Shown: piece by piece, positions 7,669-44,664 of the stretch
Layout of the letters: each line of letters begins with the position of its first letter
How positions within the stretch are numbered: the stretch's first letter is position 1
Assembly: GCA_021831035.1 (NCBI GenBank)
Contig: JAKBNL010000008.1
Span: forward strand, 1 to 64,000
Reading direction: 5' to 3'
DNA: 64,000 bases
Origin: Actinomycetes bacterium
GTDB lineage: Bacteria; Actinomycetota; Acidimicrobiia; Acidimicrobiales; RAAP-2
Notes under the pieces: model-generated
Told to the model about the DNA's origin: nothing
Database searches by the model: none
Seen by the model: the letters and a program-made list of their open reading frames with translations, nothing else
Program-made: the position numbers and the translations under genes

Positions 7669-11302
<3,634 letters not shown>

Positions 11303-43125: not shown

Positions 43126-44022
43126 GTGAGGGTGCGCCCGCTCGGTCCGCGCGACGTGGACGCGGTGTGCGAACGGGTCGTCGCGCGCGTGGCGGCCGCG
43201 GCCGAGCGCAGCGCCCTCCTCCAGGGAACACTCGATCGGGAGGCGCTACGCCGCGCGGTCGCGAGCGTCGCGCCGGCGTGGGTGGCACGCTCCCGGGGGC
43301 GTATCCTCGGGCACCTCGCGACCGCGCTGGTCGACGCGTCGCGGGGTCGCGCCTGGGTCCCCCCGGACGGGGCGAGCTTTGACGGCCCGGCCGTGCTCGG
43401 CGCGTTGGTCGCCGCCGCGGCGCCCGCGTGGCGCGACGCGGGCGCGGACGGCTTCTCGGCCTGGGTCTACGACGAGCCGAGCGAGGTCGGTGCGTGGACG
43501 GCGTGCGGAGCCACCCTGCGCGCTCGCCGGCGCGTGCGGGTGCTCCCGTCGACGCCCGGCCCCCACGCGGGGACGGGGCTCGGGCTGCGCCGGGCCGGGA
43601 TCGGCGACCTCGAGGTCGCCCTCACGCTCGATCGGTGGGGGGATCCGCCGGCCGGCCCGGTGCCCGGGGAGAGCGAGCGCCGCCGCGAGGTCGCCGACCT
43701 GCTCGGGGACCCCGACGTCGACTACCTGGTGGCCGAACTCGAGGGGCGCGCGATCGCCCAGGCGGTGGTGATGCCTCTGGCGTCGCGCCGGGGCAGCCGT
43801 GGTGACGCCGTCCACCTGAGCGCCGTCGCGGTCGACCCGGGCCGGCGCGGGCGTGGCCTCGGCAGCGCCCTCGTCGAGTCGGTCCTCGAGCGGGCCCGGT
43901 CGGCCGGCTACGCCGTCGCCGAGGTCAACTGGCGCACCGCCGACCCCCGGGTCGAGCGGTTCTGGCGCGGGCGCGGCTTCACGCCCACCCACGCGCTGCT
44001 CGAGGGGCCGCTCCCGGCCTAG
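43126..44022 (+). CDS. Two-domain GNAT acetyltransferase
   Basis: 298 residues. The C-terminal half (about 150-298) is a clear GNAT domain: VHLSAVAVDPGRRGRGLGSALVESVLERARSAG binds acetyl-CoA, followed by VNWRTADPRVERFWRGRGF. The N-terminal half (1-145) has the layout of a second, degenerate GNAT domain (VARSRGRILGHLATALVD, AWVYDEP) lacking the CoA motif, as in mycothiol synthase-like proteins. TAGCGT (43114-43119) ends six bases before GTG 43126. Stop TAG belongs to the CTAG flanking the MITE-like insert. Confidence 0.85.
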   Translation: MRVRPLGPRDVDAVCERVVARVAAAAERSALLQGTLDREALRRAVASVAPAWVARSRGRILGHLATALVDASRGRAWVPPDGASFDGPAVLGALVAAAAPAWRDAGADGFSAWVYDEPSEVGAWTACGATLRARRRVRVLPSTPGPHAGTGLGLRRAGIGDLEVALTLDRWGDPPAGPVPGESERRREVADLLGDPDVDYLVAELEGRAIAQAVVMPLASRRGSRGDAVHLSAVAVDPGRRGRGLGSALVESVLERARSAGYAVAEVNWRTADPRVERFWRGRGFTPTHALLEGPLPA

Positions 44023-44181
44023 GAGACTTTTGAACAATCCACATCGAGAAGTGGGTGCGCGATTCTTGTTGGACTGATTTGATCTCGAGGACGATTGGAA
44101 GCCGTCTTAGAGCGCTACAGCGCGTTGGTCCACTCCGTCGCTTTGGGTGAGTAATCCCAAAGCGACTAATTCATCAGTCTC

Positions 44182-44185
<4 letters not shown>
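44019..44185. mobile_element. MITE-like insert (44023-44181) with CTAG target duplication
   Basis: A 159-base stretch of lower GC content begins GAGACTTTTGAAC and ends with the reverse complement of GAGACTGATGAAT, i.e. imperfect terminal inverted repeats (GAGACTnnTGAAnnA). It is flanked on both sides by CTAG (44019-44022, 44182-44185). The left CTAG contains the acetyltransferase stop, the right one the peroxidase stop. Internally an 11-base dyad GTCGCTTTGGG (44137-44147) / CCCAAAGCGAC (44156-44166) forms a hairpin. It codes for nothing obvious. Size, ends and CTAG duplication suit a miniature relative of an IS5-type element. Confidence 0.6.

Positions 44186-44664
<479 letters not shown>

Follow-up and report, generated by a model that had tools for sequence, protein, structure and literature searches.

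A probable MITE with IS1182-type ends in the CTAG stop shared by two convergent genes

Introduction

How did a piece of low-GC DNA come to lie between two facing genes without costing either of them its stop codon? The question is raised by positions 44019-44185 of a 64,000-nucleotide stretch (the window, by which the whole stretch of DNA analysed is meant) from genome G000, an assembly of 1.9 Mb in 20 contigs that is 94% complete. Genes for a GNAT-family acetyltransferase and a glutathione peroxidase converge here, and each ends in its own CTAG, with 159 bp in between. An earlier note, made from the sequence alone, had read this arrangement as the insertion of a MITE accompanied by duplication of a 4-base CTAG target. 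Comparison with related genomes makes it very probable that the insert is indeed such an element: a short, gene-less piece of mobile DNA inside a CTAG stop common to the two genes.

The insert and its flanking genes

The features of the locus are as follows, those of the insert being named according to this reading.

43126..44022, + strand: GNAT-family acetyltransferase gene, 298 aa, frame intact (Pfam PF00583, E 2.3e-13)
44019..44022, no strand: left CTAG, putatively one of two copies of a duplicated 4-bp target; supplies the TAG with which the + strand GNAT gene ends; a single CTAG in 5 close relatives
44019..44034, + strand: left terminal repeat, including the target bases
44023..44181, + strand (the orientation of the 13-copy alignment A1): probable MITE core, 159 bp, delimited by its copies and by alignment A1
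44137..44166, no strand: internal hairpin with an 11-bp perfect stem (44137-44147 with 44156-44166)
44170..44185, - strand: right terminal repeat, including the target bases
44182..44185, no strand: right CTAG, putatively the other copy of the duplicated target; supplies, on the - strand, the TAG with which the glutathione peroxidase gene ends
44182..44664, - strand: glutathione peroxidase gene, 160 aa, frame intact (Pfam PF00255, E 6.3e-42)

The sequence and coordinates given in the earlier note (CTAG, 159-bp core, CTAG, with inverted ends and an internal hairpin) were borne out. The inverted repeat at the ends is 18 nt long and 89% complementary, a length in which the CTAG and the two bases outside it are counted at each end. 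The core is also as GC-poor as had been claimed, at 0.503 compared with 0.722 for the window, and a GC content as low as this was met in one of 6,385 sampled 159-bp windows (0.016%). The note had further described the insert as lacking a coding frame, and the one ORF of at least 20 aa that lies wholly within it has 31 aa (44055-44150, + strand), while five others enter from outside. Nor does the core look like what is left of a gene. Over the 13 aligned copies described below, no stop-free run exceeds 55 codons, and column variability by codon phase in alignment A1 is 0.184, 0.237 and 0.275, a mild period; a coding remnant was rejected because the longest stop-free runs vary by copy and lie in different frames.

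CTAG is scarce in the window, with 37 occurrences against a mean of 82 in shuffles. Six other convergent gene pairs of the window that have one CTAG in common, had been counted in the earlier note, and exactly six were recovered, at 8267, 15862, 38770, 42433, 45870 and 51998. At the insert, each gene does retain its own stop, the GNAT gene in the left CTAG and the peroxidase gene in the right one. Both genes are still stopped after insertion because the target is copied and because CTAG holds a TAG on both strands.

Copies in G000 and in the genus

A search for the 159 bases elsewhere, as the earlier note had proposed, uncovered dispersed copies both in G000 and in other genomes of the genus. 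G000 itself contains three: that of the window (100%), one on C14 (98%) and one on C8 (84%). The second G000 copy aligns end to end with an E value of 6.4e-79, and the insert pattern is therefore not due to chance. In a DNA search of 61 genomes (E<=0.01), seven gave matches, those in G001, G017, G032 and G035 extending over 19-29 bases only. A sequence-only model, built from 13 copies of 161-170 bp with 50-98% pairwise identity (alignment A1), gave 30 matches in 13 of the 99 genus genomes (E<=0.01), and 21 of these span at least 160 of the 167 model positions. Two of the genomes are doubtful (G080, with a partial and weak match of 18.5 bits, and G026, where the match overlaps the genome's own IS); setting these aside leaves 11 that are firm. 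Five identical copies are present in G028. The flanks of most copies are unrelated to one another, and one CTAG is altered in two copies, to CTGG in G104 and to CCAG in G074.

Some copies lie in unusual surroundings. At G104:C23:43483-45680 (L087), two MITEs that are 98% identical lie about 2 kb apart in the same orientation, possibly forming a composite unit, and it is in one of these that CTGG replaces CTAG on one side. G028:C18 (L219) and G005:C16 (L220) share the same degenerate copy within a stretch that is identical over 1,099 of 1,099 bases; the two genomes are listed as different species, and the identity reflects either recent transfer or mixed assemblies. Finally, the right flank of L003 (G000), L115 (G101) and the right flank of the second MITE of L087 (G104) contain homologous sequence (73% over 143-167 bp) at nearly equal distance from the CTAG, which suggests that insertions may have struck the same gene end more than once.

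Empty sites and probable target duplication

What do these loci look like where the element is missing? For the window site, a search with the peroxidase gave a match in 95 of the 99 genus genomes, and 30 loci, that of the window included, were examined. Twenty-eight of the 29 orthologues were parsed, L073 being left out. (G092 was also left out at this site, its peroxidase being split over two contigs, at 94-97% identity.) The two stops are 159 bp apart in G000, and a gap of this length occurs in none of the 28 parsed orthologues (from the 29 loci L058-L086). In 19 of them the stops overlap by 4 bp, the overlap being CTAG in 12 and CTAA, TTAG or TTAA in the rest, and such overlapping convergent stops are the usual arrangement for the GNAT/peroxidase pair in the genus. 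The five close relatives whose peroxidase gave a whole match (92-97% identity) each have a single CTAG, common to the same two convergent genes.

The other two G000 sites tell much the same story. Among nine loci for the C8 site, exactly 4 bp are found in G001 (CTAA), G086 (CTAG) and G032 (CTAG), that is, in three of the five readable close relatives. The others are G004 with 10 bp (CTAGGCCTAG), G101 with an IS end, three distant genomes with 3 bp, and G092, which is too short. (The 10 bp of G004:C132, L153, may have arisen by tandem duplication of 6 bp, or else they are the footprint that an element left on excision.) For the C14 site, ten loci from nine genomes were compared, and exactly 4 bp occur in five of six readable close relatives: G001, G004, G086 and G101 (CTAG) and G092 (CTAA). 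Here the remainder are three distant genomes with 8 bp, G032 with 890 bp, and one G092 locus that is too short. At the 4-bp sites the flanks lose nothing. A target extending beyond CTAG was considered and rejected, the only trend being a mild one towards C before it (12/22) and G after it (9/22).

Orthologous loci with a single CTAG and no insert, for which the earlier note had suggested looking, thus exist, and at each of the three G000 sites the comparison supports an insertion that duplicated a 4-bp CTAG. The proposal of a MITE with a 4-base duplication is accordingly upheld from three sides, namely by the dispersed copies, by these single-CTAG sites and by the CTAG-flanked full-length ISs described below.

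Could the segment instead be a fixed regulatory or RNA element between convergent genes, such as a bidirectional terminator or a small RNA? The fold predicted from the single sequence is strong (z -4.96), an 11-bp perfect hairpin is present, and the terminal repeat and hairpin together are paired in 79.8% of cells over the 13 copies, a value reached by 0 of 500 shuffles. Four hairpin pairs are changed on both sides, in eight such cells, compared with 1 to 4 pairs and up to 11 cells in slid controls. On the other hand, pairing over the 13 copies reaches 91.0% of cells in the terminal repeat and 65.7% in the hairpin, which, judged by eye, has survived well in the G000, G004 and G092 copies only. 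The consensus fold of the 13 copies amounts to -0.78 kcal/mol and contains, besides the terminal repeat, two helices only (of 3 and 2 pairs); no Rfam family was found in the window at gathering scores; and the unrelated flanks of most copies are not what a fixed element would have. The five close relatives compared at the window site also lack the element there. The earlier note had held that such a fixed element would be indicated if there were no other copies and the segment were always present at orthologous loci; copies were found elsewhere, and orthologous loci lack the segment. These empty sites contradict a fixed RNA element, and there is next to no chance that this explanation is right.

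The partner element

Which element could have moved the MITE? The end pattern CTAGGAGACTGTTGAA, with one mismatch allowed, is found in 23 of the 99 genus genomes, against one match in the backward control. Full-length elements were obtained in nine cases; they measure 1735-1765 bp, counting both CTAGs, and all nine have CTAG on both sides. A full-length IS with GAGACTGTTGAA ends, for which the earlier note had suggested a search, therefore exists. The transposases of the nine are 68-100% identical to that of G032, the one on which the family scan was run. It has the Pfam domains DUF772, DDE_Tnp_1 and DDE_Tnp_1_6, and it scores 336.2 bits with the IS1182 family model (NCBIfam NF033551), for which the cut-off is 270. 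Matches to this family (E<=0.001) occur in 26 of the 99 genus genomes and exceed the cut-off in 12. None was found in G028 or G104, which hold five and two MITE copies, respectively; the mobiliser in these genomes is either unseen or lost.

Elements of the IS5 group duplicate a 4-bp YTAR target, and the earlier note had looked to this group for the parent while marking the assignment as an inference. The expectation of a CTAG-flanked IS partner was correct, and the target is similarly CTAG-like. The partner transposase, however, falls below the cut-off in all four IS5 models that it matched, with a best score of 85 bits against a cut-off of 140; the IS5 family proper was rejected on this ground, and the partner belongs to the IS1182 family.

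The full-length IS1182-family elements share the terminal repeats of the MITE, over 16-24 terminal bp in the nine. Positions 44019-44040 are identical in 21 of 22 bases to the IS1182 ends of G000 C9, G001 and G032. (The C9 sequence is a fourth match in G000, covering the first 22 bases only, 21 of 22 identical, and followed by the start of a transposase and then by the end of the contig. This IS copy is cut off after 52 aa of transposase, and an intact transposase was not seen in G000.) The MITE differs from these elements in that it is without a transposase gene, and its interior has no match in the nine full-length ISs when 13 copies are compared by BLASTN; in five further IS1182-type loci, the matches are limited to the termini and a few isolated short stretches. 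Since the interior is absent from these ISs, the MITE is not a simple internal deletion of any IS seen here. When one genome per GTDB species is scanned, the exact end pattern occurs in 39 stretches, labelled Acidimicrobiia, Acidimicrobiales, Acidimicrobiaceae, Actinomycetes or Actinobacteria, with one exception labelled Acidobacteria; by this exact-match scan, the end sequence looks confined to one lineage. The relatives of these uncultured bacteria are mostly labelled Acidimicrobiia or Actinomycetes.

At the C8 site, MITE and IS are found in the same place. The MITE of G000 and the IS ends of G101 abut the same base, and the flanks are 92% identical over 804 bp, CTAG included on both sides, while G001, G086 and G032 are empty at this shared site. 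One contig of G101 breaks off within the left IS end, where 22 residues of the transposase start are still present, and another within the right IS end, so that the whole IS is unassembled at this site, which is the single one that makes up the empty-site test of an IS. More generally, G101 (L107-L121) has 15 IS1182-type ends, each about 130 bases or less from a contig end, and seven of them then run into the start of a transposase; this is a high-copy IS that broke the assembly.

A proposed mechanism

The insert is, in all likelihood, a non-autonomous MITE that depends on IS1182-family elements of its genus for mobilisation in trans. We infer transposition from the comparison, since the loci compared contain a unit with IS-matching inverted ends at different places in different genomes. 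The IS1182 transposase would bind the ends of about 16 bp and join the MITE to a CTAG opened by a cut staggered by 4 nt, and repair of the resulting gaps would duplicate the CTAG. Insertion into a convergent double-stop CTAG would give each gene its own TAG and leave both proteins unchanged. Elements in double-stop CTAGs would be expected to persist, because little harm is done there.

A different route to the same product is that the element brings its own CTAGs, which take the place of a target CTAG, by inverted-repeat replacement as proposed for IS1272. This IS1182-family element is described in the excerpts available from PMC5678879 and PMC4923244 as replacing hairpin targets and as inserting without duplication, and since CTAG is palindromic, replacement and staggered-cut duplication give an identical sequence. 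Against this, the target here is constant, 4 bp that read CTAG or, in some relatives, CTAA, and the flanks are intact at the 4-bp sites; ISPsy36, another IS1182-family member, is reported to have GGCC repeats in the excerpt from PMC8027508. Replacement is unlikely, and duplication of the target is the reading preferred here.

Placement at stop codons

Do these elements seek out stop codons? It could be argued that the choice of CTAG is an evolved safe-site strategy of a mobile element that exploits the overlapping stops of the genus. Fifty insertions were classified. Of the 23 with both sides readable, 9 occupy a convergent double stop, 9 a single stop and 5 neither; of the 27 readable on one side, 18 lie at a stop; and a coding-like frame is interrupted by none of 22. 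(The IS of G092 was counted as two-sided, with a right flank of 11 bp, and left out of the frame-interruption count; without it, the two-sided figures are 9, 9 and 4 of 22. The count takes in G104_a and G074_C37, each of which has one altered CTAG. Among those left out of the classification were G033, which has an N run, and G074:C25, which has no right CTAG; G097, G094:C61, G021:C7, G030:C6, G003:C39, the copies G028:C18, G005:C16, G009 and G032:C12, and other partial model matches were likewise unclassified.) Not all insertions are independent, the G032 IS and one G101 end having a common site.

The 35 other CTAGs of the window, however, already include 6 double stops of convergent coding-like frames, 12 single stops and 17 that are neither, a background drawn from one window of one genome, with coding status judged by open frame and G+C by codon position, not by annotation, a rule that works poorly at the lower GC of G028. 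The excess over this background gives a Fisher p of 0.074 for double stops and 0.054 for any stop, which is not convincing, and targeting of stop codons beyond the CTAG background was rejected as a finding. Similarly, in-gene insertions (0/22, against 3/35 in the background) give p 0.28. Some excess at stops is in any case expected from the loss of harmful insertions. The placement at stop codons is thus largely explained by where CTAG occurs; the distribution of CTAG together with the loss of harmful insertions is enough to account for the bias, site seeking is doubtful, and an evolved safe-site strategy is unlikely.

A broader proposal would be that a CTAG-targeting transposon family enters between genes at the 4-bp overlapping stops of this Acidimicrobiales-type genus, leaving each gene with a stop of its own, and that the MITE interior may itself serve some function, such as binding the transposase or a host factor. 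Across 11 genomes the interior has kept its length and two blocks of its sequence, and no autonomous carrier of it was found. Taken as a whole, this proposal is improbable.

Discussion

MITEs linked to the IS1182 family are already known, and this one adds another. According to the excerpt from PMC3852290, ISMac2, an IS1182-family element of Methanosarcina acetivorans, has MITEs of 160 bp (14 copies, IR 26, DR 4) and of 169 bp (7 copies, IR 25, DR 0), and the MITEs and partner ISs described there generally share end segments of less than 20 nt only. The present MITE is like them in its size (159 compared with 160 bp), in its 4-bp repeats and in an end-only likeness to the IS; the ISMac2 MITEs differ in having an archaeal host, and the likeness is one of description, not of sequence.

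A palindromic target is also not new in this family. Palindrome-targeting IS1182 members are mentioned in the excerpts from PMC5678879 and PMC4923244, which cite Siguier et al. 2015. The ISPsy36 of Pseudomonas syringae pv. actinidiae, as it appears in the excerpt from PMC8027508, is an autonomous element of 1,666 bp inside a gene; like the partner IS and the MITE it has a 4-bp palindromic target repeat, and unlike them it has GGCC, not CTAG, as that repeat. (In the excerpt, CTAG is the target of ISPsy32, whose family is not named there.) In a large survey, the IS1182 family is among ten that are over-represented between convergent genes (PMC9208149, in excerpt). Among the matches listed from the open-licence PMC literature, as far as their excerpts go, no paper was found on the insertion of an IS1182 element or a MITE into shared CTAG stops.

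What, then, does the locus mean? The general lesson is a modest one, because the bias towards stop codons is mostly explained by the occurrence of CTAG. The locus does provide a clean natural case of an IS1182-linked MITE with a 4-bp CTAG target, with occupied and empty sites, in uncultured bacteria. It illustrates how a 4-bp palindrome that holds a TAG on both strands would let an element settle at the point where two convergent genes meet, with neither protein altered.
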